A program made the position numbers and the translations under genes. A DNA stretch of 64,000 nt from Micractinium sp. NFX-FRZ (taxonomy: Eukaryota; Chlorophyta; Trebouxiophyceae; Chlorellales; Chlorellaceae), in the NCBI GenBank assembly GCA_029339195.1, contig JAPTJF010000016.1, forward strand, positions 124,001 to 188,000, given 5' to 3'. Each line of letters starts with the position of its first letter. Position 1 is the first letter of the stretch. The notes beneath the pieces are model-generated. The model was not told where the DNA came from and did not search any database. It saw only the letters and a list, made by a program, of their open reading frames with translations. Positions 3,857 through 63,000 of this stretch are shown here, piece after piece.

Positions 3857-6800
3857 TCAGAGGCCCAGCCGGCACACGGGGTTGCGCTTCACCATGGAGA
3901 GTGAGACCTTGTGGCCGAAGAGGTCGCGGATGTTGTCAATGTTGTACAGGATCATGGTGGGCCTGCGGTACAAAAAAGGGGGGAAGAGTTTGTACTGCTG
4001 AGCGCATGTCGTCGATGCTGTACAGGATCAGGGTGGGCCTGCGGTACGAGGGCAGGAAGAAAGAACGTGTGCATTGAATGCTGAGTGTGAGTGCAGAAGG
4101 CGCCGCTCTCACTGCCAGCCCCAATGCGATGGCCCTCTGAACAGGCGTGGCGTACTGCTCTGATCAGGCGACTCTGCCGCCCTTGATGTCCGGACAGCAT
4201 TGCTTCACTCAGACATTACAGAAACCAGCACACACTCACCGCTCCAGGACCAGGGCGCCTTCCGGCCCGCCCGGCTCCACCCCCTGCCATCCCTGTTTGT
4301 TGCAGCGCACAACACACAGACAGACAGACAGGAAGCAAGCCCAGCCACACACACTCACCGTTCCAGGCCCAGGCCCCATGCGATGACGTTGACCCCCTCT
4401 GGCAGGCCCATGGGCCGCAGCATCTCGGGGCGGAACATGCCGCTGTTGCCCACCTCGATCCACTTGCCCAGCTGCTCCGAGTAGCTGCACGGGGGGCGGG
4501 GGCGGGGAGGGGGGCGGGTATCCAGACGTGATGCAGGAGCGGAGGGGATTCAGTGGGGGGAAAGATGAGGGGATGGGTGGCGGGGCTGCCTGCTCAATCC
4601 ACTTGCCCAGCTGCTCCGAGTAGCTGCAGAGAGGTCGTGGGATAAATGTGATACAACAAGAGAGGGGGATGAGGCGAGGACATGAGGATGATGGGAGAAC
4701 TGGGTTGCCCAAGCCGATCCATGTCCCAGCTGCTTGGACAAGCTGCATGTGGGGGGTGGGACAGAATGGGATCCAAACAGAAAAATGGAATCAGGTGAGG
4801 ACATGAAGATGATGCAATGATTGGCAGATCGACACACACACTTGAGCAGCTGCAGCGGGGAGGAAGGGGTGGGGTGGCTGTGCAAGAGGGCGACGTGGGT
4901 GGGTGAGTGTGGCTTGAAGGGGTGGAACGCAGGAGGCGAGCAGGGGAAGCGGTGGCCAGCCCAGCCTTTGCACTGCCCCGCTGTGGAACCTGCATACATA
5001 CACCGACCCCTAACGCCCTCAAGCTCAGCCAGGTCACTTCCCCCACCTGAAGATCTCCATGCTGGGCTCGGTGTACGGGTTGAAGGCGGGCTTGAAGCGC
5101 AGCTTCTTGAGGCCCAGTCGGTCGAAGAACTGCTGCAGCGTGCCGATGAGGTCGGCCAGGGTGAGGCCATAGTCGCACACCACACCTGCACAGAGGAACA
5201 TTAAGGTTGGGTTGCGATTTTATAGGCGAGAGACACGAGGGAGCAGCGTGGCGGTAAGGGCGGCCAGGGTGAGGCTGCAAGTCGTGCACCACGCCTGCAC
5301 AGGGAAAAGCAGACACGCAGGAATGTGGTGTGCAGAGGCAAAAAGCGGGGAGCAGCGTGGCGGTGAGGCCGGCCAGGGTGAGGCTGCAAGTCGTGCACCA
5401 CACGTGCAGACAATACGGATCAAATAAGAGAGTGCAGGTGATTGACACAGGCCAGCGTGCCAATCAGGGCGGCCAGAGGGAGGTGCCCGTACGCACATCA
5501 CGTTTGCAGTCCACAAAGCCAGCACTCCACCCATGAGGCGTATGGTGCAGCCTCCCTCCCTCATATGCGCCGCTCCCCCAACGCCACCACGTGGCCGCCC
5601 CCCTGCTTGCTCACCCTCGATCTGGTGGAACTCCGCCAGGTGTGTGCGGTCGATGGCCTCGTTACGGAACACTCGGTCGATGGAGAAGTACTTGGCGGGG
5701 CGGAAGCCGTCCTGTGAAGGGGAGAGAAGAGGGGGTGGGACCGGGGAGTGGGGGATTAGATGATCTGGTAACTGACAATTGTGAGGTTTATAGTACAGGT
5801 GCGTAAGGAAGCTTGGTCAATGGAGAAGTACTAGGTGGGGCGGAAAGCCGTCCTGCGGGATCACACAAAAGATGCAAGCAAACCAGCGAAAGCGGGAAGG
5901 GGTCGTAAAGTTGAGGGGGCAAAAAGGGGAGGTCTGCTGACCCCCCTGCGGACCCCCCAAGCTGGCCCAGCAGGCAGCCCAGCACACTGCTGCCGCACGG
6001 GGGTTGCGCGTGCGCACCCGCCCTGCCGCACCTGCGCTAGCTGGTAGAGCATGCGTGAGGAGACGGCGGTGGTGTGCGTGCGCAGCAGGTTCTTCTCAGC
6101 TTCCGCCGTCTTCCAGTCGTACCCGTACCCGATGCTGCCGTAGCCGCCGTGCTGCAATCCACAACGGGGCGAACACAATATGGGAGGGAACACAAGTGAC
6201 GGAAGGCAAGCTAATCGTTGCTGCTCTCTCACAGCTATCCTGCCGTGCTGCTCCGGGCTGCAGCCGGGAGGCCCGTTCTCTTCTTCAGCCCGCCCAGCAC
6301 AGCCCCCGACCTCAAAGCCTCCAGCCACGCCCCCCACAGAGAAGCAGCAGGCCAGCCCACCACCGAGCAGACCTCCATCCAACACCACAGAGAAGAGCTG
6401 CAGCCCAAGCTGGCTGCCCACCTGGTGCGTCTGCTTCACTCGCTGCAGGTAGTCCTGTGGGAAGGTGGAGGCGGGGGTGACCGCCGGCTCTGCGGTGGGG
6501 TGGGTGGGTGGGGTGGCAGGGGGGTGCAAGCGGAGTGGAGTCAGGTTCAAGTGCCTTTCTCGCCAGCCTGCAATTAGAACGGTGTCTGCCGTACACACAC
6601 GGTGCTGCGGCTGGGACCGCACGTTCTCAACCCCCCACCCACCCCTCCTGCCCTGCGCTCACTTGTGAGGAAGAAGGTGTCGTGCGCGTCGCGCGCCGGG
6701 TGCTGCTGCGGCTGGAACAGGGCGTCAAAGTTCCAGAAGGAGCTCTCCACGTAGTTGTTGGTGGGCATCTCCTGGAACCCCATCTGCGTAAAGATCTTGC

Positions 6801-9273
6801 GGAACTGGGTGCGCACCTGCGGGCGGGGTGGGTGGACAGCGAGGGGTATTAGCATGGTCTCTAGAGTAAAGGTACAGAAGAGAGCGGACGTCTGCTTGCG
6901 CGCAAACTCCTTATAATCGGAGATCTTGCGGAACGGGGTGCACCTGTGGGCGGGGTGGGTGCACACCTGCGGGGGGGGGTCGGACAGCGGGGTGTGAGGA
7001 TGGGTGTGTGGAGGGGTGTGCCAGGAAAGAGAAACAGCTGCGTGGTTTGGATTGGAACACGATGTGTGTGTGGAGATCTTGCGGAACTGGGTGCGCACCT
7101 GCAGGGGGGGAAGCGGGGTGCACGGGAGTGTGTGTTGACATTCAGGGCACAGCAGAGGCTGAGTGAGGCCGGTCACCACCCGCCCTCACATGGAGCAGGG
7201 GGTGCACGCACCGTGCTCCCGCTGTCAGCCCCTGCCCCTGCGCACGCCCCACGACCCTGGCAATCAACCGCGGCCGTACTGCCCCTCCCCCGCCCCTGCC
7301 ACCTCGCACCTTGAGCAGCGGGTGCAGGTGCCCTCCCGCGGGTGGCAGGCCCAGCGCGTTGAAGTTGTACTCCTTGAACGTCTCCTCCCGCCAGCTGCCC
7401 CTGCAGCCCAGCAGCCGAGGGGAGAGGTGCAAAACGTGAGGTTATGAGAGATGCTAGTGTTGCGTTTCATGAGAAGTTTCCTCCTGCCAGCTGCCCCTGC
7501 AGCATGGCCATTGAACAGCCGTGCCACGTGTGCGACGAGTGCGGCCGGGGAGCGGCACGGCACGGGGAACCGTAAAGGCACCACCAGAGCAGTAGGAGCA
7601 GCAGCATGCGCGGCAGCAGGATCGCCTGCCGTGCCCTTGCTGCCAGCCTGCTGCCCCCTCATCTCCCGCTCCTGAGCGAGCAGCACACATGCACACACAC
7701 GCTCCGCTGTCCAGCCAAGCAAGAAAACACGGTACTCACAAGCACCCCGTCGCCACCGCCCCAGGCAGCACCTCCCCTCCTCCACCCCACGCCCCCGTGG
7801 CTCACTTCTGCAGCATCTCCGCCGTCAGCTCGGTGGCCGCCTTCTTGCGCTGCAGCGCAAAGGCGGGGCCCTTGCCCACCCGGTACGTCTTCCAAGCCTC
7901 CGGCACCACCAGCTTGCGCTTCTTGAGCACCGCCAGCTCGGCCTCAGTGGCCCCAGACTCCTGCACGGTGCGGGTGAGAAGCACGTAGTGCCAGCAACAA
8001 GGGTGGGAGAGGGGGGGTGGGCAAGCAAACCACCCCTGCGCTTCTTGAGCGCAACCAGCTCAGCGCCGCTGGCCCCAGACTCCTGCTGCCAGCAGCAGGC
8101 CTTGTCGGTATAAGGCAAGCCGGCAAGCAGCCAAGCTGAGCAGGGGTGGAGAGGGAGCCAGGCAAGAGGGAGGGCCTGGATGGGCAGCAGCATGCCTCAA
8201 CACCTGCGTGCCTGGTTGCCTGCCTGATCAGCTGCCACCCACGTGTCTGCCTGCCTGCCTTTGCCAACCGCCTGTCCCCGCCTGCAAGATTGTTGGGTCC
8301 CTGCTGCCCCCTCTTCATGCATAACCCGCACCCACACCTGCACACTCCCCGCCTCCCTGCCGCCGTTGCCCCCGGAAGGCCCAGCACCCACCAACCACAG
8401 GCACAACAAGGCGGGTGCTCCCTTGTGTCGCACCTGCCCTGCCGCCGTCGCCTCCAGAATCGCCAGCACCCGGTCCTGAATGCCATCTGTCTTGCGCACC
8501 ACTTTGGGCTCCCCCCCGCTCTTGTCGATTGCCACCCACTTGAGCTGCATGGCCTGCTTGAACCCCACATCGCCCGCTGCACCCAGCTGCTTCTGCAGAG
8601 CGGGTACGGACGAACGGGGGGAGGGCAAGCGTGGCAAGGGCGGAGGCGGCGGTGTAGGTGCTGTGCAGCAGTGATGCAGAGTCACTGGGCTTCCGGCACA
8701 GGCAAGGCAGCCTGGGCAGCAGAGCCCGCATCGAAGGAGAGGGGGCCGCCGGCTGCTCGACACATGCAGCATCAGCTGTTGCTGCTTTGCTGCTGAGCAA
8801 TGCAAGCCCACCTTGATCTCCGCTAGTGAGATGCCCTCTGCCGGCACGGCATTGAACACCTGCGCCTCAGGAGACCCCTTCCCCAGGTAGCCCTGAGCCT
8901 CTGCCGTCAGGCTGAACCGCGAGTGGTCGATGTCCTGCGGGGTGGGCAGAGGCGGCAGTGGTGAAAGGCAGCGGCGGCAGCAGCAGCGGCGGCGGCGGCG
9001 GCTGGGTGTGCAACATGCCGCGCATGGCGGGATAAAGGGGCGCCCATGGCGGCATCCGGGTACTTTGGAGACCGTGGCAAGGCGCCAGGAGGCGCTGCAA
9101 GCCCCACCACCTGGCTCCCTCACCTCAGTGGTGATCATGTCGGCCGCCAGCAGTGACTTGAGCAGGCCCACAACCTGCTGGTGCGGGATGCCATGCTTTT
9201 CCGCAAAATCCGCAGAGTCCTGCACCTGCCCGGCGTCCACCGCCGCGAGCAGCGCCGTTTCCAGCTCGGCCAT
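3857..9273 (-). CDS. Phenylalanyl-tRNA synthetase alpha subunit, cytosolic, 12 exons, 495 aa
   Basis: Catalytic subunit that charges tRNA-Phe in the cytosol as an alpha2-beta2 enzyme. Exons: 9124-9273, 8812-8934, 8434-8592, 7806-7960, 7310-7400, 6663-6816, 6422-6489, 6032-6151, 5615-5711, 5047-5185, 4359-4484, 3857-3962 (1488 nt, all phases agree). The N-terminal winged-helix region (residues 1-90) starts [15 protein letters not shown], as in plant homologues. Class II motif 2 ([19 protein letters not shown]) is near residue 355 and motif 3 (WGLGLERPTM) near 460; the end NPVCRLGL matches the family ending. Length fits yeast and plant enzymes. At least seven of the eleven introns hold degenerate copies of the adjoining exon edge, listed separately. 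It is divergent from uL23m with about 0.6 kb between starts. Confidence 0.95.
3937..4047 (-). repeat. Junction echo: acceptor of PheRS last exon (1 copy)
   Basis: Parent edge 3937-3971 (last exon start plus acceptor) recurs at 4014-4047 in the upstream intron with few changes, keeping the CGCAG acceptor. Confidence 0.8.
4228..4385 (-). repeat. Junction echo: donor of PheRS exon 11 (1 copy)
   Basis: Parent 4345-4385 (exon end plus GTGAGTG donor) recurs at 4228-4262 in the downstream intron, donor retained. The same intron also holds an echo from its acceptor side. Confidence 0.65.
4449..4750 (-). repeat. Junction echoes: acceptor of PheRS exon 11 (2 copies)
   Basis: Parent 4449-4490 recurs at 4591-4630 (nearly identical) and at 4705-4750 (more diverged). 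Adjoining intron sequence with a gaggacatgaggatgat-like motif is repeated at 4662-4695 and 4789-4820, so the duplicated unit is about 125 nt and spans the junction. Confidence 0.85.
5136..5515 (-). repeat. Junction echoes: acceptor of PheRS exon 10 (3 copies)
   Basis: Parent 5136-5190 recurs at 5245-5303, 5350-5409 and 5453-5510. The first two echoes are more like each other than like the parent, a sign of stepwise duplication. Each carries the CGGCCAGGGTGAGG-type core; the first two also keep the GTGCAG or related acceptor end. Confidence 0.85.
5671..5858 (-). repeat. Junction echo: acceptor of PheRS exon 9 (1 copy)
   Basis: Parent 5671-5715 (SIDRV codons through the acceptor) recurs at 5812-5858. 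The echo has an added base and an in-frame stop, so it cannot replace the exon. Confidence 0.85.
6787..7108 (-). repeat. Junction echoes: acceptor of PheRS exon 6 (2-3 copies)
   Basis: Parent 6787-6822 (VRTQFRKI codons plus acceptor) recurs at 6920-6955 and 7072-7108, with a further fragment at 6958-6980. The 7072 copy keeps both the codons and a GCAG acceptor. Confidence 0.85.
7372..7506 (-). repeat. Junction echo: acceptor of PheRS exon 5 (1 copy)
   Basis: Parent 7372-7406 recurs at 7468-7506 in the upstream intron; the shared core ccagctgcccctgcagc spans the acceptor. Confidence 0.8.
7911..8086 (-). repeat. Junction echo: acceptor of PheRS exon 4 (1 copy)
   Basis: Parent 7911-7966 ([15 protein letters not shown] codons) recurs at 8035-8086 with about one change in five, including the GAGTCTGGGGCC exon start. 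Confidence 0.85.
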
Positions 9274-10555: not shown

Positions 10556-10564
10556 GACTGATAG

Positions 10565-10603
<39 letters not shown>

Positions 10604-10854: not shown

Positions 10855-13800
10855 ATGCAGGGCAGCGGCGAGCATGACGCAGCAGCAACAGCAGTAGGAG
10901 CACACGGCGGTGCGGAGCCCATGGCGGTTGACGCTCCGCCTGCAGGTGAAGCGGCGGCAGCTGCGGCGGCAGCCGCGGCAGGCGCCGCCGCTCAGCCTGC
11001 CGCTGGCGGCGCTGGCACCGGAAGCCAGGCGCTGGCAGACTCTCTTGAGGGCCACGCGGTGTATGTGTCTTTTGAAGAGAAGAAGGAGGTGTCGGAGCGG
11101 CGGGCGGGGCGGAAGTCGGGGGGGCACACCTACGTGGTCAAGTTCTTTTTGGTGGACTCGCACGGGGTGGAGTACCTGGCGGCCACAGGTGCGTAGGTGT
11201 AGTGGGCTGGGTGGTTTGTGTGTATTGTGGGTGGGTCTGACAGTGTTGTGCTGCATGCCAGTGTGCTGTCCTCCAGCAGCCACGTGGGTGCTGACACCGG
11301 GGCAGTATCCCGGTCAACTGCGGCGTGCAGGGTGCGTGGTGGTGGTGGGGTGCGTGGGTGCAGGGACGCATGTGTCTGGGCTGCAGCTCTTGACGCGTGA
11401 CTACCGTTGTGTCACCCAACCATGGGCAAGCAATGCCCCCTTGCAGGCGAGGACCAGGGGGATGCCCACTACCTGTATGAGAACCAGACCAACTTCCCCT
11501 TCCTGCGGGCCAACAACAAGGGGGTGAGCATGGTTTTGACAAGCAAATGAAGAGCGGACAGGGGTATGGTTGGGTGGCGCAGGGTGAGGGGAGAGAGGCG
11601 CGGCGTGGGCTCGCAGGCCCTGCTTGCCTGTGCACCGCACACACTGCTGCCACTGGCGTTTGCGGTTCTGCCTGTCCTGTCAAAACGCTTTCCGCCCCGC
11701 CTGCACATCCCCCACCGGTCCCGCCCCCGCCCGCCCCTGCCCTCCTGCCCTCCTGCCAGGATGTGCGCCTGTGGCTGGAGGGTATCATTGAGCGCAGCCA
11801 GGAGCGGGCAGGGGTGCACGGCCACCTGGTGCAGGTGAGATAGTGTGCGCGGGGCGGCATGGGCGCAACATGCCAGGGGCCGGCGCTTGCTGATTGCCAG
11901 GCAGGCAGGCAGGCAGGTGGCGCGGCACCCCGCAGCGCCTGCGTGGAGCCCGCCAGGCTGTGCCCGTGCTTCCAGTGCTGTGTGAGCTGACCTGCCCGCT
12001 GCCAGGCCCACTCTGCTCTGTGCTTGGTGGCACCCTGCCTTCTCCCGCCCTGCTCTAGTCTAGAACAAGAACCCCAAACCCCTGCAACCCGGCCCCCCGC
12101 TCTGGGCGCGCCTGCCTGCCGCCCTTGGTGCCCCCTCATCTCCCCCATTGCCCGTCTGCTGCTGCTGCAGGACGAGGTGCCTGCCGATCCCAACAAGATC
12201 CACCTCCCCAAATTTGTGGGCCACATGTGAGCAGGGGTGCCAGTTGTTTGCTTGCCTCTTGGGAGCCCGCGCCGTGGGACACGCTGAGGGCCGGCAGCTC
12301 CGCCTGCTGCTGCTGCTGCTGCTCACTCTGCGCTTCCATGCACCTTACGCCTGCTGCCGGCTGCGCCTCACTCCCTGGCTGCCCGCCGCCTCCTGCACAT
12401 TTTGCTCCCCGGCCGCCATTACCCCCACCCCTCTCTACCAAGACCCCTGCAGGAGCGACAGGAAGGAGCTGCCAGCCGTGCATGCACTGCCTGCTGTGCA
12501 TCAGTCCCCGACCGCCACTTACCGCCGTTCTGCCCCCCCTTATTCCCAACCCCCCTCTTCTCCCTGCAGGAGCGACAAGAAGGAGCTGCCAGACGGGCGG
12601 CACCGCATCGAGTGGTTCCTGCTGGACGAAGCAAACGACGCCCACCTGGCCATCGTGGGTGAGTGGCGCCTGCAACTGCTACGACTGCTTGCAACTACAT
12701 TTAGCTGCTTTGTTTGTGCTGGATGGAGAGGCAAACAATGCCCACCTGGCGATCGTGGGTGCATGTTGTCCGCTGCTGCTTCTTGGGTTGTGGTATTCTT
12801 TGTCAGCGAATTGGGTTAGGATTGCGTTGGGAAGGCGATCGCTGATCTCACGTCCGGCCCGCTGCTGCCGCTGGCCTGCTCTTGCTGCCGCCATTGCCCA
12901 TTGGCACCACTGCCCGGTCTGCTGCCCCGCTGGGCTGCTCTTCATTCATACATGCACCTCTTCTGGCAGCGCCCCGGAGTGAACTGGTATGCTCCCTGCC
13001 TCGCCCCCTTGCCCTGCAGGCGAGGAGAAGGAGACGCGGGACGGGCATTACCTGTACCGCACGCAGGGCATCTTCGACAAGGCACTGCCCCTGCAGGTAC
13101 TGCTGCGGTCGTAGTGCTGCAGTACCGCCGCCCAGCATGCTGTGCAGCACCATGTGCAGCGTCCCATGGTCGGGCCGGAGTCATATGCAGCATGAGGCAG
13201 CACTGGACAGCGTGAGCTTCACCCAGTGCCGCTGCCTGCCTGCCTCCCAACAACCGCATCGCCGCCGCCGCGTCACCCTGGCGCCTGTCCGTGCCTCATT
13301 CATTTGTGCAGGTGGGCAACCAGCGGGAGGTGGAGCGCTGGATTGACATCATGGTGTTCCACGGAGGGGTGGCCCCCGCGGGCACGGCCGGCAAGGCGGG
13401 CGACAGCCAGGGCGGCGCCCCCACGCTCAGCGGGCTCAGCGGGCACCGGTGAGCGCACACATCAGCAGCCTGCACGTGCCTGCCCACATGTCCTGGCCCT
13501 CGAATTGTGCTGCTCTCGGCAGCCTGCCTCCCATGACGCTTATCTCGCCGTGCCTGTGAAGGAGCTCACCGTCGCGCGTGCCCGCTCACCTTCCTACCTT
13601 GGCCATTTTACTGGCACAGCACACCAGCTCTCCCTCGTCCCATTGCTCACTCCCGCTCCCTAACCCAACCCGCAGCGCCAGCTCCCGCGCCACCGGCGGC
13701 TACGGCGCGGTGCGCGCCAGCCAGACGGGCGGGCAGAAGAAGGCGGCAGCGGGGCAGAAGCACGACCTGCTAAAGCAGGCCACCAGCAACGTCAAGAAGC

Positions 13801-20377: not shown

Positions 20378-21127
20378 CCCGGCTGCCCAGCGGCGTGCTG
20401 CCATTGCTGATCACGTGCTGGCCGAAGAGTGGCCACTTGTGTACATGCTTGAGCCACGCCCGACTGCTGCACCGTTCATGCACTGGCGGCCATGCAAGGC
20501 GCCAGGGCAGCACCTTCTTTGCTCGCCCCGCATTCGCTCCCTGTGGTGCATCGACACGAGTGCACGGTCTTGCTGTCAGGGTACGACATGCACCCCCTCC
20601 ACAAGGGCGGGCAGGTTTGTGCTGCCCTGTCTCAGGATCGGAAGCCGCTGCACCCATCAAATTCTAGCATGCTCTCAGAACTGTGTGGTGTAACTAACCA
20701 AGGGAAACGCAGTCTGTGGAAGGCGTCAGTGGGCGGGAATGCCTGTGGCTTAGCCGCTGCTGGCTTCTGAACAACATCAGGCTGTGCACGCTGCAGGCTC
20801 TGGCCAAGTTGTACCGCCTCAGGCTGTCAATCACAATGATGACCTGGCACTGCCTGCTCTGCCTGCCTGACCTGGCACTGCCTGCCTGCTCTGCGGATGC
20901 GCTGGCAGCGCTGGTTCAGAGCATCGCCTTGACACCTAACATGCTTGCAAACAAATTGTTGGGGTAAGGTAAATCTGGCAGCAGAGGCGAGGCATGGCAC
21001 GCAGGAGCAGAGGGCAGCAACAGAGAAGGAGTGGGGTGGAAGGGCGGCCGGCAGCGTGCGCCACCCTCACTGCGTGCAAGGCAGCTCTGGGTGCGCGTGC
21101 TGAGCAAGGGAGCCAGGCAGGCACTGC
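20378..21127. other. Intergenic: convergent 3' ends of RING-CH gene 2 and tandem gene copy 1
   Basis: No coding signal. From about 20820 onward it is the start of the tandem duplication unit shared with 23675 onward. A TGTAA at 20689-20693 may serve RING-CH gene 2. Confidence 0.55.
20689..20693 (+). terminator. Candidate TGTAA poly(A) signal of RING-CH gene 2
   Basis: 312 nt past the stop at 20377. Confidence 0.3.
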
Positions 21128-21165
21128 TTACCCACCAAACACAGTCAACTTGATGACCAGGACAA

Positions 21166-23104: not shown

Positions 23105-23404
23105 GATGGCAGCAATTCACAAAGGCACCAGGGGGCGTGTTGCGATGCCAAGAGCGGTTTGCGGGATTCTCTCACTGGGTGCTGACGTGGCGTCGTGAAG
23201 GGATGCCATGTGGGATCCTTCCCAGGGTACAGCAGACGCAGGGCAAGCAGAAGCAGAGGGCAGCAACATGCGTGCCAGAAGATGCAGGGGCGGAGGTGTG
23301 GTCGACGTTCGCTGGCAGCGTGCGCCACCCTCACTGCGGCCAAAGGAGAGCGCCCTCCTGCGCCCTCTGGGTGCTGGGGCTACAAAAAAAGGCCAGACAC
23401 TGGA

Positions 23405-50282: not shown

Positions 50283-53004
50283 ATGATCGAGGAGATTGAC
50301 AGCACAACCTACAACAAACACTATTTTGAAAAGGTGCGACAACAGGGAGGAGTGAAAGCACGCAGTTGCGACTGTGCGGCACGCATTCGCTGCACAATAC
50401 TGTATGCAGGCCGGGTGCCAAGCACAAGCATGCTCCTGCCTCTCCTGGCATAGCATGCCATTCTGCTAAACGCCCTCTTATTTGCCACGGCAGGTCTACA
50501 AGGAGGCGGGATCGGACCCTCAGGCCTTCCTGGCCGCCGCCCTCGACTTTCTGAAGCAAGAGACGCAGTTCTTTGCCCAGCCCGAGGCCGCAGCGGCCGC
50601 CGTGCAGCGCGCCCTGGCCAGCCACCTGCCTGCCGGCACGGCGGCCCCCGCGGCTGCGCCTGAAGCGGCGGCAGCGGTAGCAACGCCGCCTGCGGCAGAG
50701 CAAGTGGCCCCGACGCCTGCGGAGCAGCAGCAGCAGCAGCAGCTGCCGGCGGCGGCGCCAGAGGAGGCGGCACTGGCGCAGCAGCAGCAGCAGCAGCAGC
50801 CAGCAGATGAGGCGGAGGAGGCGCCAGCAGGGGCGTCTGCAATACGTGAGCAGCCGCCTGCCAAGTTGTGATGCATGCCACCTGACTGCACAGGCTTTGG
50901 CCTTCCTTGAACCGCACCTGAGGCGCTCCTCCGCAAGCCCTTGCCAGCCTACACTTCACACACCAGCTGCCACTGCCCCAGCAAGCCAGCCCTCTCCCCC
51001 TTGCCCGCCCCCTTCCCGGCACTCACCACTGCAGGGCCCAACGACGGCAACGGCGCCGACATGGGCCCCTACTGCTGGACCCAGACGCTGGGGGAGCTGG
51101 TGATCTCGGTGCCGGTGCCGGCGGGCACCAAGGGGCGCGCCTGCGACGTCGTCATCGCGCGGGACAAGCTGCGAGTGGGGCTTAAAGGGCAACCGCCGGT
51201 GCTGGGTGAGTGGCGAGATGCGCAGCGCTGTGGGGGAGGGGGCTGGGTGGCTTGAAGGGCAGCCGCTGGTGGTGGGTGAGCGGGTGCTGCGCTGCGGGGG
51301 CGGGGACATGCACCAGTGCGGCGCAATCGCACCGGCGTCGGAGGGATGGCGTCCCTGTCCTGGTCGCTGTGCCCAGTGTTCTGGCGGTGCTGCTGTTGCA
51401 GCTGGAACTTGCACGGAACTCCACACGCGCTTGCGCCCCTGGGGAGTAAACCTCAAATGAAAGCAGGAATTGCCTGTGTGCTGCTTTACCAGCCAAACCC
51501 AATTCCATGCTACCATTATTCTCTCATCGTTCTCATCCCAGCACTCATCCTCAGCGTGCTTTCTGCTGCAGACGGCCCCCTGTTTGCCTCTGTGAAGCCC
51601 GACGACTGCCTGTGGAACCTGGTGGACGGGCGGCAGCTGGAGGTGAGCCGCTGGCCAAGCAGATAGGTGGTGAAAGGTGGCGCTGCGTGTGGCTGAGCTG
51701 GGGGGGTGATGTACGGGGCAGGGAGGCCAGTGCAGTGTGCCGGCTCCCCCCCGCTTCTGTTTGTTGGTCTGTGCCTAGGAAGTTAAGATAAGCACTGTTC
51801 AAGCAGCTCCTTGGATTGGCCCTTAAGGCGCCCTTCATGGCACCACTACCCGCAGAGTGTGCGCTGCCTGTCCTGGTTAAGCCACACTCCACCTCACTTC
51901 ACACACCCCCGCAGGGCGACTCTGACCAAGCGTGCAACCAGATGGAGTCGTGGCGGTGCGTGGACTGCACAAAAGAAGTTCCTGTTTTGAAACATGGGCC
52001 TGCCTTGCACCCCTGCAGGTCACCCTGGCCAAGCGCAACGAGATGGAGTGGTGGCGGTGCGTGGTCAAGGGGGAGCCGGAGATTGACACGCAGGCGGTGG
52101 AGCCAGAGGCCAGCAAGCTGACGGACCTGGGTGAGTGCTGATCTCTGTTGTAGGCAGTGCAATCAAATTCAACTCAAGTGAGGGCTTGGCAGGGGGCCTA
52201 GATTTTCACAGGCAGGCAGGGCAGCCAGTCGGAGGCCAGCAAGATGACAGACCTGGGTCAGGGGTGTGTGGGGTGAGGGGCTGGGCATTGCTCGATCAGT
52301 GAGATGTCAATTATCGGCAGTCTGACGGGCGAGTAGCAGCCGAGAACCCCTGACCCCACTGCTGGATGGGTTGCCTGACCCTGGCACCCTGCCTCCACCT
52401 GCTCCCCATGCACCACCTCCTGCCTGGCCTCTGCCTGACCGCCCTGCTCTTTTTCCTTTTCCCCCTGCTGCTCCCTGCAGATCCGGAGATGCGGGCGACG
52501 GTGGAGAAGATGATGTGAGTGCTGGGGAACACTGTGGGGTGGGGGGCGGAGAGTTGTGGCAGGTGCAGTGGCAGGTGCAGGCAAGGGTGGAGGTGCATAC
52601 AGCGAGGGTGCACATAGTCCTAGTGCCGCTGGCCCAGTGGCCCCTGGCCGCAGGCCGCAGGTCAGCCCCTGATGGTAGTTGCTCCAAGACTGCCGCTGGC
52701 AACTGTGCTGCGCCTGCAGCTGCACCTGTCTCTGCGCCTGCAACCCCCTGGCGGCCTTGCATCTGCCCCTGTTCCTGCAGGGCCGGCCAGCTGCAGGGGG
52801 CCATTGAACTTGACTGCTCGCCTCTTCACCTACACTTGTGGCCTGAGTTGCCGCTGCTTCTGCCCCTGCCCTTGCAGGTACGACCAGCGGCAGAAGGCGA
52901 TGGGGCTGCCCACCTCCGACGAGCAGAACAAGGCCAACATCATGCAGCAGTTCATGGCGGCGCATCCCGAGATGGACTTTTCAAACGCCAAAATCGAGAT
53001 GTGA
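50283..53004 (+). CDS. NudC-like CS-domain co-chaperone, 7 exons, 305 aa
   Basis: HSP90/HSP70-linked co-chaperone; homologues act in nuclear migration and in plant thermotolerance (BOBBER). Exons 50283-50333, 50494-50845, 51035-51205, 51572-51642, 52019-52130, 52481-52514, 52878-53004 (918 nt). The N-terminal helix ([20 protein letters not shown]) matches the NudC dimer/N domain. A Gln/Ala-rich linker follows to about residue 130. The CS (p23-like) fold covers residues 140-240: [60 protein letters not shown]. The end [18 protein letters not shown] is the conserved NudC tail. The start at 50283 is the first in-frame ATG after a probable acceptor; an upstream 5' UTR intron is likely. Confidence 0.92.
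51166..51282 (+). repeat. Junction echo: donor of NudC exon 3
   Basis: Parent 51172-51213 (GLKGQPPVL codons plus donor) recurs at 51244-51282, ending in GGTGGGTGAG like the parent GCTGGGTGAG. Confidence 0.8.
51907..52073 (+). repeat. Junction echo: acceptor of NudC exon 5
   Basis: The echo at 51907-51970 (CCCCGCAG acceptor, then CCAAGCGTGCAACCAGATGG) precedes the parent at 52011-52073 (CCCTGCAG, then CCAAGCGCAACGAGATGG). Confidence 0.85.
52090..52260 (+). repeat. Junction echo: donor of NudC exon 5
   Basis: Parent 52095-52135 recurs at 52219-52260: GAGGCCAGCAAG, TGAC, then GACCTGGGT. Exon 5 thus has echoes on both sides. Confidence 0.85.
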
Positions 53005-53955
53005 TGCCATGGCATCTCGGCTGGGTGCCAGCATTGCAGGGCCCCGATGCTATGCAGCAGCTTGAGAGGGACTTTTCCCGGCGCAAACACTTGGGATGTG
53101 TGGCGCAACGGGGCGGGTGCTGATGCGCTATTTGAACACTTGGCTCCCGTCCAGTGCTTTGCTGTGGTCAATCCGCGCCTGTTTCGGGCAAGGCAGGGCT
53201 GCTGGGCCTGTCACCAAGAGAGCTGCCCTTGCCCTCGCCCCCCGCCACCATGCCTTGCTGGTGCCTGGTGCCCGGCTGGCAGTCTCGTGCTGTATCTATC
53301 CTGCCTGTTTGGTGCATGCAGATTTTCAATCAGAAAATTGTGGAACAACACAGTTTGAGAGCAGAGCGCTGAGCTGGAGAGGGAGCAAGCCGCTTTTATG
53401 TGTGTGTGTGTGTGCGGGGGGGCAGGCTCAGGCTGTACAGAGGCCAAACCTCAGCACAGGTGAAAGCGTGCTTGGTCATCTATGACTGTGGGTGAATGCT
53501 GCCAGCCTGGCGTCATCTTCCGTGGCGCCAGCTCAGACCGGTCGGTTGATTGGCCGACACAGGCGTGCAGCTCAGTCGGCTGCGGGCAGCAAGCAGGGGC
53601 CAGGCGGAGGGCGGGCAGAGGTGAGGGAAGGCGGCACATGGGCCACATCGCTAGTTGCCTGTGTTTGCAGGCTGGGCGGGCCCTGCCAGCATCTGATGTG
53701 AGCCAATCATGCTGGTGGTTGATGCTACGCCCGAGGCGCTGATCAACACAGGGCCCTGCTCCAAGCCATCCCCCCTTTCCTGCCTGCCCCGCACACGCAG
53801 TATCGACCTTCCTCCAAGCCACCATTCATCATCGTCTAGAGAACCAACAGCTGGCAGCGTCCCCTGTTTCTACCCTGACCACCCACGCTGGGGTAGCCCT
53901 TGCCTGCCCAGGTGCCCGCTCACCTCCCTCCAGCCCAGGCGGGCCGTCATCATCA
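53005..53955. other. Convergent intergenic region between NudC and HSP70
   Basis: No supported ORF. Contains a (TG)8 run at 53399-53414 and, at its right end, an echo of an HSP70 exon edge. Confidence 0.5.
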
Positions 53956-54096
53956 TCAGACAGGTCGCATGCTGGCAGCAGAATCTCTGCCCTCTGCTTG
54001 CCCTAGCCGCACCCCGATGCCCCACACACCGTCTAACTCCTCACCTCCCTCCAGCCCAGGCGGGCCGTCGTCGTCATCCGACAGGTCGCCCACTGG
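53915..54096 (-). repeat. Junction echo at the end of the HSP70 tail exon
   Basis: Sequence 54036-54096 ([14 protein letters not shown] codons and a GGTGAG donor-like site) recurs at 53915-53975. The echo is open in the same sense, so it may instead be a genuine last exon joined by splicing at the GTGAGG near 54049. Confidence 0.75.
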
Positions 54097-57000
54097 CCTC
54101 GCTGCCGCCGCATTGCCGCCGCCAAACCCGCCGCCCATGCCGCCTGCACCAAAGCTGGGCATGCCCCCAAAGCCTGCCATGCCCATGCCGCCCATGCCGC
54201 CCGCCTTGCGGCCGGCGGCAGGCTTGCTGGCAGTGTCGTCGGCTGCCTCCAGCCCAGGGGGGCCGTCGTCGTCGTCATCGCTCTCCCCATAAGCGCCGCC
54301 TGCGGGGGTGAAGGAAGCGCCGCCAAAGCCGCCCATGCCGCCGGCAGCCCCCGCCTCTTCTGGCCCTTCCAGGTCGGGGATGTCGTCATCGTCGCTGCCC
54401 TCCTCATCGAATGAGTAGCCGCCTGGGGAGGGAGGGAGGGAGGGGCGTTGAGGGCAAAAGGGAAGTGAGGTGAGGTGCGGCAGATGAGGTAGAAACATGA
54501 GTGGCAGAGTGATGTTAGGGAGAGGAAAAAAACTGAGGGGCACAGCAAGCAGGCGGCTGGAGAGCAGCAGTGCTTAGCGTGAGGGATGTGCGAGTGCCCT
54601 GCCGCAGATGGCGGCTGCAGCAGGCAAGAGCACACCAACAGCGCAGCTGCGGAGCCGCCGGGCACGCACCTGCGCCGCCGGCGCCGCCACCAGCGCCAAA
54701 GCCGCCCATGCCGCCCATGCCTCCCATGGCGCCCATCCCACCCATGCCTGCGGGCCACGAGGTAAGGGGAGCAAGGCAAAGAACAGGGTCAGGAGGAAAA
54801 GGCAAGGGCTGGCATAGACGTTGGAGGGGCAAAGTGCCAAGCAGCCGGGCATTCCAGCAACATGCAGGCAGGCGGGCAGGCGGGCATGCATGTGCAGGCG
54901 GGCGTGCAGGTTCAGGCAGCGGCACGGCTCACCGCCAGCGCCCATGCCTCCCATCATAGAAGCCATGTCGGGCATGCCGCCCATGCCTCCCATGCCTGCA
55001 GCAGCACGGTGCATAGCACGGTTATCAGAGAAAGGGAAAGAACAAACAAAACAACAGCGGCTCTTCGCTACAATCGGGTTTTAGAGGGTTGCAGTGCGGC
55101 AGCTTGGGGGTGCTAGCTGCCCACCCCACCCATCCCCGCATGCGGCATGCCCGCTGTGGCCACACAGCAGGCATGCGTGCTCTCCGCCCACTCACCGCCC
55201 ATGCCTCCCATGCCGCCCATGCCTGCAGCATGTGGGGGTGAAAAGTGGCCAGTTTCATATCAGGCGGGGGGTGGACAGCAGAGCAGGGTAGCAACTGGTG
55301 CCAGCATTCAAGGCGGGGTTGGCCCCTGGCCATAAGGCCCTGTGGGGAAGGTGCAAGGGTGTGGCTGCTTTGCATTGGGGAAGCACCAAACGCAAACACA
55401 GGCGAGCGCCAGCAGGCGCAACAGCAGGCAGGCACTCACCGCCCATGCCGCCCATTGCCCCCATGCCGCCCATTGCTCCCATGCCGCCCATGCCGCCTGC
55501 AGCATCCAGGAAACGGCGGCAGCAATTCAAGTCAAGCCGGCCGGCTTGCAAGCAGCAGGCAGGAAGCAAGGGCGAGCCATCAGCCAAAGCCCCACATGTC
55601 TTCTACCTCCCCCCGCCCTCCTGCCAATGCAAGGCGTGCAAGCCCCTGGCCCTGCACACACAGAGGTTTTCTAGACCGCCACCCCGCCCGCACCAACAGC
55701 TTGCGCACGCGGCAAGCCCCCGCCCGCCCTTCCCCCCGCTTTGGCCCCACGCACCAGCGCCAGCGCCAGCGCCTGCGCCCGCGCCGCCGCCCGCCCCGTA
55801 GAGGCTTGACATGATGGGGGCGCACACGCCCTCCACCTCAGCCTTCTTCGCCTCGTACTTCTCGGCGGGCATCAGCTGCGCCGGGGGGGAGGGAAGCAAG
55901 AGGGGAGACGAAGCACCATGTGTGAATGTCGTGAGTGTGCGTGAGCACGTCTGCCTCGTTGCATAGCAGCTGCAACCATCCCGCTGTGCTCCCTCATCAC
56001 CGCACTGCTTCATACTCCTCCCCAAGCTCACCGGGTTGGTTGCGATCCAGCTCAGCGCCGACTCCACCTCACTGTGCACCCCCCTCCTCACGCGCTGTTT
56101 GACAACCCCTCCCCAATTGTTCGTTTAGGGTGTAGGGTTTAGGGTAAAACCCCCAAACCCTACCCCTAAAACGCAGGCTCTCCAACCTAAAACGTGTTCC
56201 TGGCCCAGGAATAAAACGTGTTCCTGGCTCACCGGGTTGGTTGCGATCCAGCTCAGCGCCGACTCCACCTCGTCCTGCATCTTTGTGAGGTCATCCGGTC
56301 CCAGCTTGGCCTTGACAGCCTCATCAGCCACAGAGTGCTTCACGCTGCAGGTGTGTGTGTGTGCAGAGGAGAGTGCATGAGGTGCAGGGATGGGAAAGAC
56401 AAGCAGGGCAAAGGCATGACCTGCGCAAAGCAGGCAGGATGGCGTGCCGTGTGCCTCGCTGCTCCTGCTCCTGCCCAGCTGCGCGTGCCTCGACCACCTG
56501 ACCGCCACCCCTGCGCCCTCTGCCGCGCTCCCTGAGCCACACACGCACACAAGCACGCACATTACAGCACACTTGCGCCCTCCCCTTGCCGCTAACCAAG
56601 ACACCCGCCGCCCCGTGAACCACCTGCAGAGGTAGTTCTCCAGCGCGTGCCTTTGCCGTCCCCCAACTGGTGTGGCACACTTGCGCCCTACCCTTGCTGT
56701 TGGAACTGGAGGCACCCGCCGGCCCCCCGCGCACACACGCACCCACCCACCTGTAGAGAGTAGTTCTCCCAGGTGTCACGGCATTGATCACCCCCCACCA
56801 CACTTGCGCCCTCCCCTTGCCACTAACAGCCAAACTGAAGCACCTCGCCCCCCCCCCCAAAAACACACCCACACCCACACCCACCTGTAGAGGTAGTTCT
56901 CCAGGCTGTGCCGCGCCTCGCTGTTCTTCTCAATCTCCTTGTCCTCGGCGCGGTGCGCCTCCGCCTCCTCCACCATGCGCTCCAGCTCGTCGGCGCTGCA

Positions 57001-60000
57001 GGGGATTGCACGGGTTCAATAAAATACAAAAATAAATAAAAATAAAGTGATGTGAGGGCCAAATATACGCGTGCGTTGTGTGCACTCCGCCGGCGCGGCA
57101 CGGTTGCATGGGTGTAGGTGAGCGATGGTGCGGGTCACTCAATGAGTACGCCATGTGGTGTGTGCGCCTCCGCCTGCCCCGGCTCCTCTTAGGCAGGGAG
57201 TGGAGCAACAGAGCGGCAGCACAAACCAGGTGCCACTCCTGAACGGACCCACCAGAGGCGCCCCGTGCCTGTGCCTGTACACTGCTTGCAAAGTGCACAA
57301 CCCCCACAGGCGGAGTGGCGTAGACAACACCGTGCTGTAGGGTGTGATGCTGACGTGGTGAGGGGGGTGCCCCGCCCACCTGAGGCGTCCCGTGTCAGTG
57401 ATGGTGATCTGGCTGACCTTGCCCGTCCCTGTATCCTTGGCGCTCACATTCAAGATGCCTGAAGCGGATTGGAACAAGGCGGGGCGTTGGCATTTTAATG
57501 CAGGTATGCAGGCCCAGCGCTCCCAGGCCAACCCTGCTGCCGCTGCCAGTGCAGCACAACCAGCCTTCAGCTCACAAGCCCACGCTGGAAGACACCTCGT
57601 GCCAGCTCAGCACCAGGCCACCGCCAGCTCAGCGCACCGTTGGCGTCAATGGAGAAGGACACCTTAATCTTTGGGACGCCGCGCGGCGCCGGAGGGATGC
57701 CTGCACAAAATTAGCAAAGGCACGGTGCAGGAAGCATGGAGGATGAGCTGCTGCATGCACAGCGGACGCCTGCCATCGCACCCTGCCAGCTCAGCGCCAC
57801 ACACACACCTCTGGTTCCGCACTGCCCGCCCCCCCCACCGCCCGCCCGCTCTCCCTCACCCTTCCCCGCCACCCTGCCCACCGGTGAGCTCGAATGTGCC
57901 CAGTGCTATAGGATTTTAGGGTTTAGGGTTTAGGGTTAAAACCCTACACCACCCCACCCACCAGTGAGCTCGAATGTGCCCAGTGCATTGTTGTCATCCG
58001 TGCGCGCCCGCTCCCCCTCAAACACCGTGATCTTCACCTGCAAGGACAGGGCAGGGCAGCAGCAGGGAGCGCACAAAGAGCTCGATTGACACGTGCTGTT
58101 GTCAGTTGACAAGATCCCACTAAGCGGCACGCTGACCACGGGTTTGTTGCAGAGTGGGCAGCGGCTCCCTTGCACACGGCATGCAGCAGCAAGGGCCAGG
58201 CCCAGGCAACTTGCGAGTGCCACTCACCACTGACTGGTTGTCCACACACCTGCAGTGAGGGGCGCAGCCAGGACCAGCGGGGCAGGCAGGTCAGCAGGCA
58301 AACAATGTAGGCAAGACAGCCAGGCAGGCAAAGCAGGCCCCCTGCCCCTCCTCGCCTCCCGCTCTTTGCCTCCCTTGCTCCCCTCCCCCGTGTGTGCACC
58401 CCTTACGTGGTGAACTCCTTCTCCTGCAGGACGGGGATGGTGGAGTTGCGCTTCACAATCTTGGCCATCATGCCGCCCGCTGCGGGTGGTGGGTGGGAGC
58501 AAGAACGAAGGAGAGCGGCACAGCATGTGTGGTTAGAGGTGACTGAAGGCGTGATGCTTCACAAGTGGTGGCACCCAACGAAAGCATGCATCACAATGAA
58601 AGGGAGGTGCACGAAGTTGGACTGGCTCCCTGTTATGAAAGCAGAGCCAGGGGGCCAGCCACGTTGGCTCGACAACAGGCGGAAGGTTCCCTACTTGATG
58701 CCACTCACCCACGCCAATACCCAGCGACAGGGGTGTGACGTCCAGCAGCAGCAGGTCCGTCACCTGCTGGTCCTGCTCGCCGTTCAGGATGGCGGCCTGC
58801 AGTGGGGGAGCACACCGATAAAGAGAACAATGTGAGGGAAGGGGGCCGCAGGGGAGGGGAGGGGAGGGGAGGGGAGGGGAGGTCCAAGCAGATCGGGGCA
58901 AGGTCAGCCGCGCAACCGTCGCCCCCGCGCTGCTGCTGCAGCATGCGGCACCAGGGCACTAGCCAGCGTTGTGCCACACCCCCCGTGGGAGGGCCAGAGT
59001 CAGGCCAGCATCCCATCCTACGCCACCCACACACCCGCCCACCCACCCACCCATACAATCACACACGCCCACCTGCACCGCCGCGCCGTAAGCCACCGCC
59101 TCGTCAGGGTCGATCGACTTGCACAGCTCCTTGCCTTCAAAGAAGGTCTGCCCAGGAGGGGTGGAAAGAGCCAGGTGGTGCAGATGAGTAAGGGAATGAG
59201 TGGCTGCAAGACGCAGCGCGACCTGCCCAGCCCCCACTCCTGGTCAGCGCGCGCCACAGCCCCGGCCCCACAGCCCTGGCCTGCCCCCTGTGGTCATAAC
59301 CTAGCCCTAACGCTTGCTCTGCGGCAGCAACTGCTCAAGCTGGGCTGCCCCCCAGCCCTCACACACTAGAAGCTAAGACCCTTGTTCTTACTGCTTCGCC
59401 TGCAGCAGCTGCTGCACCCTGGGGTCGCCACATACCCCCCTCACAGCCCCACCTCCCCCCTGTGTGTCGTGGCGTGCCGTATGCGCTCACCTGCAGCAGC
59501 TGCTGCACCCTGGGGTGATCCGCCCACGCCCACCACAGCTGTCCTCCAGCCCTTCACACAACGGTCTAGAAGCTACGTCCCTTGTTCCTACAGCTTTGCC
59601 TGCTCACCTGCAGCAGCTGCTGCACTTTGGGGATGCGTGTGGAGCCTCCCACCAGCACCACATCGTGCACATCGCTCTTGCTCATCTTGCTGTCCTTGAG
59701 CACGCGTTGCTGCAGGGGGGTGCGAGGAGGGGCAGCGGGGAGGGGAGGGGGACAGCGGTGCTGAGCTGCGCCAGACAGTTAGTTGCCCTGTTGCTATAGA
59801 GTCTCTCAAGCAAGCTGTGCCGCCCTCACAATACAGGGCAGAACTTGCCGCGGTCTACGTGCCAACCCAGACAGAACATCGGTTGCTCTCTGCCAAGATC
59901 AAAACAAGAGCATCACTCTCACCACCGGCTCCATGCAATGCCACTGTTAATTTCAACCCAACAGACCGTCAGCAGCCCTCCCCCACGCATCATCAAGCTC

Positions 60001-63000
60001 AAAAGACTGTCACTGTCACCACCGCCTCCATGCACTTCTCAAACTTGCCTGGGCCTGCCACAGTGGATCCGCAACCAGGCAGGACATCGCTAGCCATCCC
60101 CTAAGAACACCACGCAAGAGTAAGGCTGTGCATCAGCCTCACCACTGGCTCCATGCACTTTTCAAACAGGTCGCCGCACAGCTCCTCGAAGCGGGCGCGG
60201 GAGAGGTTGGAGAAGAAGTCGTTGCCTGGCGGGGGCACAGGCAGGGGTGTGGGTGTGAGCACGGGAAAAAAAAAGCGCCTTCAGCAGGAAGTCAGAGAGG
60301 GTGGTCATGGCGTGCGCTTGCACTACCCTTGCACGCCAACCTGGGGTCGGTACACCACACGCTACACGCCAGCCCCATTCAAACCCAAACAGGCGCTCCC
60401 GCTCCACCGCCGCGAACATTGCCCCCCCCAGCGTAAGCGTGCCATGCCTGTCCACCGCAAACCCCAAGCTCAACTAACACAACTAGCACCAGCCGCACTC
60501 ACCCTCAAACAGGTGCTCCAGCTCCACAGCGGCGGACACGGCGCCAGACAGCGTGATCTTGGCGCGCTCGCAGGCGGTGCGCAGGCGGCGGAGCGCGCGG
60601 GGGCTGCTCGACAGGTCCAGCCCCGTCTTGCGCTTGAACTCCTGCCGGTACACGAGAGAAAGGAAACAAAACAAAGCAATGCCAGTATTAGACTGTGAGG
60701 TGGGCGTAGAGCAGTGAGTTTCCATGCGCCGGGGCGCCTCCTCTTTTACAAAGGGGCTGCACCAGGCGGGCCCTGCTGCCTAGCAACTGCTCCTTCCAAA
60801 CAAATCCAATGTACAGATGCAAGATGCACGTCACCTCGGCAAAGTGCTGCACCAGGCAGCTCCTGCTACTCAGCAAGTGCTCACATCTTGCCAAGAAAAC
60901 AAAACACTCACCTCGGCAAAGTGCTGCACCAGGCGGCTGTCAAAGTCGGACCCTCCCAGGTGGGTGTCGCCCGCTGCAGGTGTTTTGACGGAGGGCGGGC
61001 AGGGCAGGGGGGCGGGGTGGGTGGGCGGGCAGGCAGGCGGCGGGGAGTGAGCGAGCCCTTGCCGCAGGCGCGCACAGATGAAGCGCTGACGCCAGGCGGG
61101 CCCGCGCTTCTGGCTGCATCCGTCCGCTCGGGTTGTAGCCGCCACTGCCCTGCTTGAAAGCACGGCTGTGTTCCGCCATCTGGCCATCCAAAGCTGCCTG
61201 CCAAACCAGCCGGCCCCCACTTCACGCGTGCCCCACATGCATCCGTCAAAACACAAGTACACCACGCAAAGCCGTCCCCTTTCCCTCGCACCCGTGGCCT
61301 TGACCTCAAAAATGCCATCCTCAATTGTGAGCAGCGAGACATCAAAGGTGCCGCCTCCCAGGTCGAAAATCAGCACGTTGCGGCCCTCGTCCTGCGGTGT
61401 GTGTGTGGGGAAACGGAGTTGATGGGGCCCGAGGAGGTGCGTGTCTGAGTTCAAACACCGGCACGCTGCACACCCCAAAGCTTGCCCTGGAAAAGCGACT
61501 GCTGTGTAGTGGGGGTGGAGGCAGGCGGGGGATTGGGCGTGGCAACAGCAGGGGTCGAGTAGCAATGATGGCTTAAAAGCAGGCACCACAGTGGTGCGAC
61601 AAAGGCAGCAGCGCGCTGGCTGGCGCCCCGCTGGCTCTGTGCCCGCTCCTCTCCCCTCGTCCCCCACCTGGCTGGCCTTGTCCAGCCCGTAGGCGATGGC
61701 GGCAGCGGTGGGTTCGTTGATGATTCGCAGCACCTCCAGCCCAGCAATCACGCCCGCATCCTGCACGCGGATAAAAGACACGCACAGGGGAGGCAGGCAG
61801 GCAGGCAGATAAGGGGGTGCAGTGGGGTTGGTGGGTGGTGGGCGAGAGTTGCACGGGGAGGGCCGTGACGAATTGATAGCACCCCCAGCCGCGCCACGGC
61901 GCCCACCTGCTGCAGTCGAGGCTGACAGGGACAGGTAACAGTGGGCCAGCCACTTCATCTGTCAAGTTCCCCTGCCATTCAAGGCTTAGCTTACTCTCCA
62001 CTACCCAGTGACCCAACGACCCAACCCTGAGCTTACTGGCATGTGTGATATCCGGCGATGCCACACGACCCCCGTATCCCCTAAACCTCTCCTGGCACCC
62101 CGCCCACCTTGGTCGCCTGCCGCTGGGCGTCTGTGAAATAGGCGGGCACGGTGATGACGGCCTTGGTGACGGGCTCGCCCAGACGGGCAGACGCGATGTC
62201 GCGCATCTGCATGGGAAGGCGAGGGGTGAGGGTGAGTGCAGTGGTGCAGGTGGTTGAGGTGGGGTGTGCAGTGGTGCACGGGGGTGAGGTGGTGAACTGG
62301 GGCGGGGGGGGACGGGCGCTGCTATGCAGGGCAGCGGGCAAGGGCAGCGGGTGCAGGGAGGGCCGCTGTACGACGCCAACCTCTCCTTCCCCGCCCTTGA
62401 GAAGCGCCCTATGTGAGCATACATACAGATACCATCCCTGCCCACCTTGCCCAGCACGATGGCCGAGATCTCCTCGGGAGTCATCATCTTGCTCTCGCCC
62501 TTGAACGTCACTGCAGGCAGGCAGGCGGGCAGGCAGGCAGATAGGGCAGGCAGGAGGGCATCAGGCAGGCAGACGGGTGAGCAGGCGGGCAGAGGCGGGT
62601 GAGCAGGCGGGCAGGGGCGGGCAGTTAGACTGTGGAGGCTGGCGGAGCGAAGGTGGACAGAGCTTGGGCTGGCGGCCCCCAGAGCCCGTGCACATTTCCT
62701 CCCTCACCCACCTGGCTTGCCCTCAACACACACACACTGACCGGAAGCGGATGCCTCGTCATCGCAACTATCCACCGCCACCATCCCGCGGCCCGCAACA
62801 CAACGAACCAAACCTAGAAACCACTCTGAGGCCGGCAACCCACAGTGCAGCATGATCGTGAGAGAACCAAACCAGGTACTGTAGCGCACCCTGGATGGAG
62901 GGTTTGTCGCCGCCGCTGTCCACCACCTTGTAGGGCAGGTGGGCCATGTCCGCCTTTACAGACGGGTCTGCCGGGGTGGGTGGGGCAGGGTGTTGCGAGT

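Follow-up and report, generated by a model that had tools for sequence, protein, structure and literature searches.

The neointrons of Daphnia have been described with direct repeats of 4-17 nucleotides (nt), which are ascribed to staggered breaks (PMC4202315), and staggered breaks, with short direct repeats left behind, have also been proposed as the entry sites of some fungal small nucleolar RNA (snoRNA) introns (PMC3596301). In vertebrates, repair-mediated proximal duplications have been reported with a mean size of 162 bp and a mean distance of 1.2 kb, occasionally including splice sites (PMC2671141). In horse and human, telomere repeats are described as inserted at breaks, sometimes with a duplication of the target (PMC7215372), and a potato intron is reported to have arisen by tandem duplication across an intron border (PMC4974935). 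Here we analyze a 64-kb stretch of the genome of the green alga Micractinium sp. NFX-FRZ (contig JAPTJF010000016.1, named C16 below, positions 124,001 to 188,000; this whole stretch is referred to as the window). A first-pass annotation of the window, made from its letters, had noticed that introns of several genes contain degenerate direct copies of the adjoining exon edge, splice site included. These copies, which we call echoes of the parent edge, can be considered with a probability of about one half as the scars of small break-repair insertions at exon-intron junctions.

Exon-edge copies in the window and beyond

The main data consisted of the window and 25 further 10-kb stretches (314 kb in all) of a genome of 66 Mb in 838 contigs, and an extra sample included 36 short loci picked by a telomere motif. 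The gene used as reference was that of the PheRS alpha subunit, whose 12 exons were fixed by spliced alignment of four orthologous proteins that were unanimous on all introns; the nearest ortholog stands at 92%, followed by those of Micractinium sp. CCAP 211/92 (88%) and Chlorella vulgaris (84%). An unsupervised gene finder was discarded after it drifted to thousands of false introns, and a finder seeded with the verified PheRS gene was used instead. All gene models other than that of PheRS come from this finder, which was trained on the same data, fuses adjacent genes and calls some echoes exons. Pfam confirmed the domains of the window genes LCB2 (aminotransferase I/II domain), RNase T2, OTU, HSP70 and PI4K, and the identity of the NudC-like gene is a reading of its open frame by eye.

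Blastn self-comparison of the window (at least 35 bits, offsets of 50-600 nt) revealed 60 direct repeats versus 1 inverted repeat, and 20 other 10-kb stretches gave 70 direct versus 3 inverted repeats within 1 kb. The 40-mers at the exon edges of 375 predicted introns, that is 750 edges, were then compared with their own intron at a cut-off score of 28. Matches were found for 53 edges (23 donor and 30 acceptor), as against 1 of 750 for the reverse complement and about 1.0 of 750 expected when the edges were paired with other introns of matched length. This swapping of exon-intron pairings had been named in advance as the check on which the observation could fail, and the description of many exon-edge copies lying in direct orientation and at spaced intervals in the adjoining intron stands after it.

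A self-comparison of the 314 kb that was independent of gene models yielded 186 pairs, 71 of which are unique, non-simple pairs with at least 15 nt of exon and a copy on the intron side (edge pairs hereafter). They correspond to 31 donor and 40 acceptor edges at 65 junctions. One of the 71, at junction 24067 (offset 552), reflects a tandem gene pair at 21-26.5 kb and is not an echo. The exon-edge copies are real, occur far above chance and are spread beyond the window, which holds 22 of the 71 edge pairs in 64 of the 314 kb and is somewhat richer than the rest; with 49 pairs located elsewhere, the pattern is not peculiar to this stretch. The initial count of more than twenty parent junctions comes down to 19 in the window by the edge-pair criterion, a number that includes junction 24067 and to which genes missed by the finder do not contribute. 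Six of the genes that had been singled out, PheRS, RNase T2, LCB2, OTU, HSP70 and the NudC-like gene, do have such repeats (Table 1), and the PI4K stretch, said to be free of them, has none at the threshold used. Eleven pairs were found in 56 kb outside predicted genes, and most of these resemble unpredicted exon edges by eye. Targeting of exons over their whole length rather than at junctions was considered, but untranslated exons do not seem to be full of pairs (the same 11 in 56 kb, in a genome sample where untranslated regions are unannotated).

Ends and decay of the copies

The copied piece includes 15-67 nt of exon and ends shortly after the splice site. It extends past that site by 3-17 nt in 22 of 22 edge pairs with at least 90% identity and by 3-22 nt in 16 of 16 pairs of 85-90%, while the range is -3 to 27 nt for the 22 pairs of 78-85% and -3 to 56 nt for the 11 pairs below 78%. 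The extension is no longer in the younger pairs, although greater lengths would be expected there if a longer tandem unit were decaying. Seed matches with a score of 32 were obtained for 44 of 716 edges, for 1 of 540 positions 40-80 nt inside the exon and 0 of 315 at 80-120 nt, for 6 of 531 in the intron next to the junction, and for 29 of 1210 in the intron interior. Eighteen pairs lie wholly within one intron, and 3 of them reach 85% identity, compared with 38 of the 71 edge pairs; the intron interior represents about 5.5 times the target space of the junctions, assuming 21 nt per junction.

The first-pass annotation had read the pattern as repeated tandem duplication across exon-intron borders. 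In the form considered here, tandem duplications with a size of about 100 nt would occur at random and anywhere, those in exons would be purged, and the unconstrained intron part of the duplicated unit would decay faster than the rest. The offsets agree with such a process, most being 74-154 nt in edge pairs and 15 of the 18 wholly intronic pairs being at 64-163 nt; the independence of offset from repeat length also fits, as does the minority of pairs that are similar through the whole unit. However, when tandem duplications of 75-155 nt were placed at random in real echo-free introns in a simulation that kept the exon copy constrained, the rates relative to that at edges were 0.50-0.55 for the inner exon, 0.72-1.14 for the adjacent intron and 1.23-1.49 for the interior, and the simulation missed the observed ratios of 0.03, 0.18 and 0.39. 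The indel rate in this simulation was guessed and is probably too low, judging from the tandem gene pair mentioned above, in whose introns 221 columns of gaps accompany 1629 aligned columns.

That gene pair, at positions 20998-26480 of the window with its members about 2.85 kb apart, aligns over 2723 columns with an identity of 89% in predicted exons and 85% in introns, the latter being alignable throughout. Since introns at 85% can still be aligned, the flanks of copies with 90-100% identity would be expected to be preserved. Yet the pairs at L020:2624-2670/2710-2756 (47 of 47 identical) and at window 56026-56070/56227-56271 (45 of 45 identical) have unrelated flanks on both sides, and the ends of the youngest pairs are as sharp as those of older ones. 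In most pairs the similarity does not run through the splice site as it would in a duplication of the whole unit, and the statement that adjoining intron sequence was copied too is mostly not correct. Some pairs are plain tandem duplications, and two kinds of events, or a spectrum of them, are present; tandem duplication accounts for a minority of the echoes and is rather unlikely to be the process behind most of them.

Mismatches in the exon parts of the 71 edge pairs amount to 11.8, 12.4 and 16.9% at codon positions 1, 2 and 3, respectively, and 38 of 2449 columns are gaps. These near-even mismatches together with the indels excluded the possibility that an echo is a coding exon. In the 53 pairs of the edge test, 19 of 30 acceptor copies retain the AG and 9 of 23 donor copies the GT, a degree of preservation that does not exceed that of the remaining copied sequence; the decoy splice sites that the first-pass annotation had envisaged are not preferentially kept. 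To judge from these substitutions, the copies look as if they decay neutrally, like non-coding DNA. In all 38 edge pairs with at least 85% identity the similarity continues for 3 nt or more beyond the splice junction, which could be taken in favor of selection keeping the copies as decoy splice sites or splicing regulators, but the state of the AG and GT dinucleotides, the codon positions and the indels render this explanation very improbable. An origin of the echo from a spliced mRNA junction was also discarded, the flanks compared with the partner exon having a mean of 11.3 versus 12.4 in the control.

Old duplications could also show this picture if gene conversion, with the exon as template, maintained the similarity of the exon-edge part and the spacers drifted. 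The copies of a ladder, as we call a series of echoes of one parent, are more alike than their spacers, and the lack of a relation between offset and repeat length is again compatible. Nevertheless, the wholly intronic pairs, so few of which reach 85% identity, should have been refreshed too, and the telomere-like spacers described below are left unaccounted for, which makes gene conversion unlikely. Genome searches for a second allele or for paralogs of echo-bearing genes, with which concerted evolution could be tested, gave none that were useful. That the echoes arose artificially during assembly or polishing, in connection with spliced reads, is extremely improbable: splice-site boundaries are what an RNA-based correction could mark, but 67 of the 71 edge pairs need not be identical copies (most have 75-95% identity, with mismatches and indels), and the copies include intron letters beyond the splice site.

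Spacers, telomere-like inserts and break repair

A set of 37 spacers (pairs with at least 84% identity and offsets of at most 260) has a G+C content of 56.7%, compared with 64.1% at 15-95 nt from the junctions in 253 echo-free introns (0 of 2000 permutations). Two spacers in HSP70, one of 42 nt within 57869-57986 and another of 156 nt (56071-56226), contain telomere-like repeats. The genome has 25 matches to (CCCTAAA)3 and 115 to (CCCTAAA)2 (100 of these 115 were listed); a long telomere array did not turn up, as perfect runs in the (CCCTAAA)3 matches comprise five copies at most. The telomere loci comprised 20 of the 22 distinct (CCCTAAA)3 loci, the window's own and C724 being set aside, and 16 further (CCCTAAA)2 loci. 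Flanking direct repeats with a score of at least 28 were present in 9 of 22 sites when the first 20 loci and both window sites were taken together (control, 3 of 462). With flanks of 110 nt, they were found at 7 of the 36 loci, or 8 of 37 including the window site at 57.9 kb, as against 8 of 1332 swapped pairings and none in inverted orientation. Direct repeats around an unrelated insert, such as a staggered break would leave, are thus found with telomere-like inserts in these 7 of 36 loci.

The repeats of L041 and L049, of 26 and 19 nt, are nearly flush with the insert, those of L063 and L054 look by eye like an acceptor edge and a donor edge, respectively, and those of L052, found with longer flanks, resemble by eye a kinase exon at its acceptor edge; at L047 the repeats are 71 and 23 nt distant from the motif. 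Of 37 telomere-like loci, 17 have a predicted exon edge at a distance of at most 35 nt, as against 207 of 981 points drawn at random from non-exonic sequence (p 6e-4). Stricter exon cut-offs gave 14 of 37 versus 165 of 1022 and 10 of 37 versus 121 of 1091, and a laxer one 21 of 37 versus 507 of 1500. This bias, 1.7- to 2.4-fold, falls short of the preference for edges shown by the repeats.

Direct repeats close to both sides of the insert, as at L041, L049, L063 and window 57869-57986, are also what a mobile element targeting splice junctions with target-site duplications of 20-60 nt would generate. Against such an element, which we regard as quite improbable, genome searches with the PheRS and HSP70 genes (simple repeats skipped, best candidates scored) found no copies of the spacers of these two genes except telomere-like stretches. 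The other matches were low-complexity or short dispersed stretches and HSP70 paralog exons, and the many dispersed similar copies that define introner elements were not found, as judged on PheRS and HSP70. As a separate observation, 162 nt at L016:1342-1503, in an intron between two exon-edge-like copies, are letter-identical to C193:93043-93204 and possibly represent a captured fragment.

We infer break repair as the cause of most echoes, with the following order of events and origin of the filler. A DNA break would occur a few nucleotides inside the intron, and a repair of a type likened to staggered-break or proximal-capture repair would add a patch of about 75-155 nt. Most of this patch would be filler of other origin, sometimes telomere-like repeats, and it would end with a fresh copy of about 25-60 nt that includes the splice site together with the flanking exon edge. 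Of the two copies, the one attached to the main part of the exon would continue to be used and the other would land in the intron and decay neutrally, and repeated events at one junction would give rise to ladders and longer introns.

Several observations weigh against this interpretation. The G+C content is lower also over the 60 nt that follow the echo (59.5%) and in random intron pieces distant from echoes (62.2%), so the spacer is not unique in this respect. The link to telomere repeats was first noticed in two cases of the window and then tested on 36 others, and 29 of 37 telomere-like loci have no flanking repeat at the threshold used. The flanks of the 53 pairs of the edge test are on average more alike than those of the control, with similarity beyond the splice site at z>2 in 19 pairs and z>3 in 10, and clear tandem duplications are found among them, for example at window 33302-33559 and L016:6193-6714. 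When an echo was called an exon by the finder, the measured extension may refer to the echo (3 instead of 6 in the pair at 56026). Independent lengths of repeat and insert would make the offset increase with repeat length. In 31 of the 38 pairs with at least 85% identity, those with offsets of at most 160, the correlation of offset with repeat length is instead rho -0.09 and that of repeat length with spacer length is rho -0.49, as if patches tended towards one size close to the median offset of 117 nt.

Finally, the preference for junctions is left unaccounted for by the break-repair model. A duplication process aimed at splice junctions and directed by a factor tied to splicing or transcription, by which introns would grow through recopying of exon edges, is a possible but more tentative reading; guesses as to the directing factor are RNA-DNA hybrids and nucleosomes of exon size whose borders are open.

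Intron length and comparison with known systems

The features of the window are listed in Table 1. Exon-edge repeats are present in 7 of the 11 introns of the PheRS gene. In its ladder at 4445..4814 the intron portions of the two echo units also show partial similarity (73% over 90 columns), and in that at 5135..5508 the first two echoes are 93% identical over 61 nt with spacers that are hardly alike, the whole also lying within a single extended but weak alignment (76% over 170 columns, copies included). In addition, a short stretch at 54861-54933 has copies of 78-90% similarity on many contigs and belongs to a dispersed short repeat or low-complexity family.

Table 1. Exon-edge copies and related features of the window (positions count from its first letter)
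Feature	Position	Strand	Details
PheRS alpha subunit gene	3860..9273	-	12 exons; copies in introns 3, 4, 5, 8, 9, 10, 11
PheRS acceptor-edge copy	3926..4047	-	parent 3926-3971, echo 4002-4047; offset 76, 89%
PheRS donor-edge copy	4229..4373	-	parent 4348-4373, echo 4229-4254; offset 119, 92%
PheRS acceptor-edge ladder	4445..4814	-	parent 4454-4502, echoes 4593-4641, 4704-4760
PheRS acceptor-edge ladder	5135..5508	-	parent 5135-5190, echoes near 5243-5299, 5352-5408, 5453-5483
PheRS acceptor-edge copy	5672..5855	-	offset 140, 89%
PheRS acceptor-edge ladder	6792..7110	-	parent 6792-6838, echoes 6921-6965 (89%), 7074-7110 (95%)
PheRS acceptor-edge copy	7380..7503	-	offset 96, 93%
PheRS acceptor-edge copy	7905..8086	-	offset 124, 82%
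PheRS donor-edge copy	8355..8471	-	offset 82, 83%
Two exon-edge-like pairs (by eye)	12445..12761	+	offsets 117, 101; no gene predicted by the finder
RNase T2 exon-edge copies	27620..27859	-	self-comparison, Pfam
LCB2 acceptor-edge ladder	30859..31166	-	parent 30869-30911, echo 30986-31030 (91%)
LCB2 donor-side tandem duplication	33302..33559	-	unit 121, flanks similar as well
OTU donor-edge ladder	39041..39506	+	parent 39041-39104, echoes 39130-39193, 39476-39506
NudC-like gene exon-edge copies	51904..52261	+	gene identity by eye
HSP70 donor-edge copy	53919..54097	-	offset 121, 90%
HSP70 45-nt copy	56026..56271	-	100% identical, offset 201; 156-nt spacer 56071-56226 telomere-like, both orientations
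Donor-edge ladder, LENYLYR exon	56565..56912	-	intervals 134, 127 nt per finder
HSP70 38-nt direct repeat	57869..57986	-	25 exon + 13 intron, 92%; 42-nt telomere-like spacer, offset 80
Donor-edge ladder	59344..59632	-	parent near 59602-59632, echoes 59485-59515, 59396-59425
Donor-edge copies	59894..60167	-	exon with donor at 60143/60142
Donor-edge copy	60831..60938	-	offset 77, 97%

A relation between intron length and echo number, proposed as a further check, is clear in PheRS, where lengths are 320-562 nt for the 7 introns with copies and 173-270 nt for the 4 without them. It is weak overall, with rho 0.09 (p 0.03) for 629 predicted introns and medians of 300 nt for introns with copies and 228 nt for the others. 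Copies are present in 12 of 65 introns of 60-120 nt, 8 of 126 of 120-180 nt, 2 of 147 of 180-240 nt, 9 of 102 and 11 of 96 in the next two length classes above 240 nt, 20 of 67 of 400-600 nt, and 1 of 26 above 600 nt; by our own reading the excess in the 60-120 nt class consists mostly of echoes called exons. When intron gain was tested by taking the intron length as the offset, 29 of the 629 introns reached a score of 34 (control 0.2), many of which are spacers separating a parent from an echo that the finder had taken for an exon. At L025:2298-2408, the donor and acceptor contexts of a predicted intron of 111 nt are direct repeats at offset 112, and this intron is one clean candidate for gain by tandem duplication. 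Apart from this candidate, the effect of the copies looks like intron lengthening.

Well-marked cases of intron lengthening or origin are few, and here 71 copies of graded identity with readable ends are available in 314 kb. If break repair concentrates at splice junctions, intron growth would be linked to splicing or chromatin. There is also a warning for annotation, as a gene finder may mistake echo copies for exons, which the one used in this work did. A literature search found no recognised description of exon-edge copies bounded by splice junctions.

The closest systems are those mentioned at the beginning, as far as the published accounts consulted describe them. As in Daphnia, direct repeats are found around inserted filler in introns and repeated events lengthen introns, but the Daphnia repeats measure 4-17 nt and are located in new introns (PMC4202315), whereas those of the alga are mostly 25-60 nt long and include exon edge and splice site. 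The alga shares with the vertebrate proximal duplications the pasting of nearby DNA close by in break repair. Few vertebrate donors overlap exon borders (4 listed as 'partial exon/intron' in Table 2 of PMC2671141), whereas nearly all recognised copies in the alga are exon edges, most of them 75-155 nt away. Telomere-like inserts, some with flanking direct repeats, are common to the alga and to horse and human. The duplication is rare in horse and human, being described at 3 of 66 loci alone and at 2 more in complex changes (PMC7215372), compared with 7 of 36 loci in the alga, several at exon edges. As in intron gain by tandem duplication, the duplicated segment crosses the intron-exon border, but the extra algal copy lies inside an existing intron and the units are mostly not tandem, L025:2298-2408 being the one candidate for a gain (PMC4974935). 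By this comparison the algal echoes appear to resemble the Daphnia, fungal snoRNA, vertebrate proximal duplication and telomere-insertion systems, with the difference that they are bounded by splice junctions.

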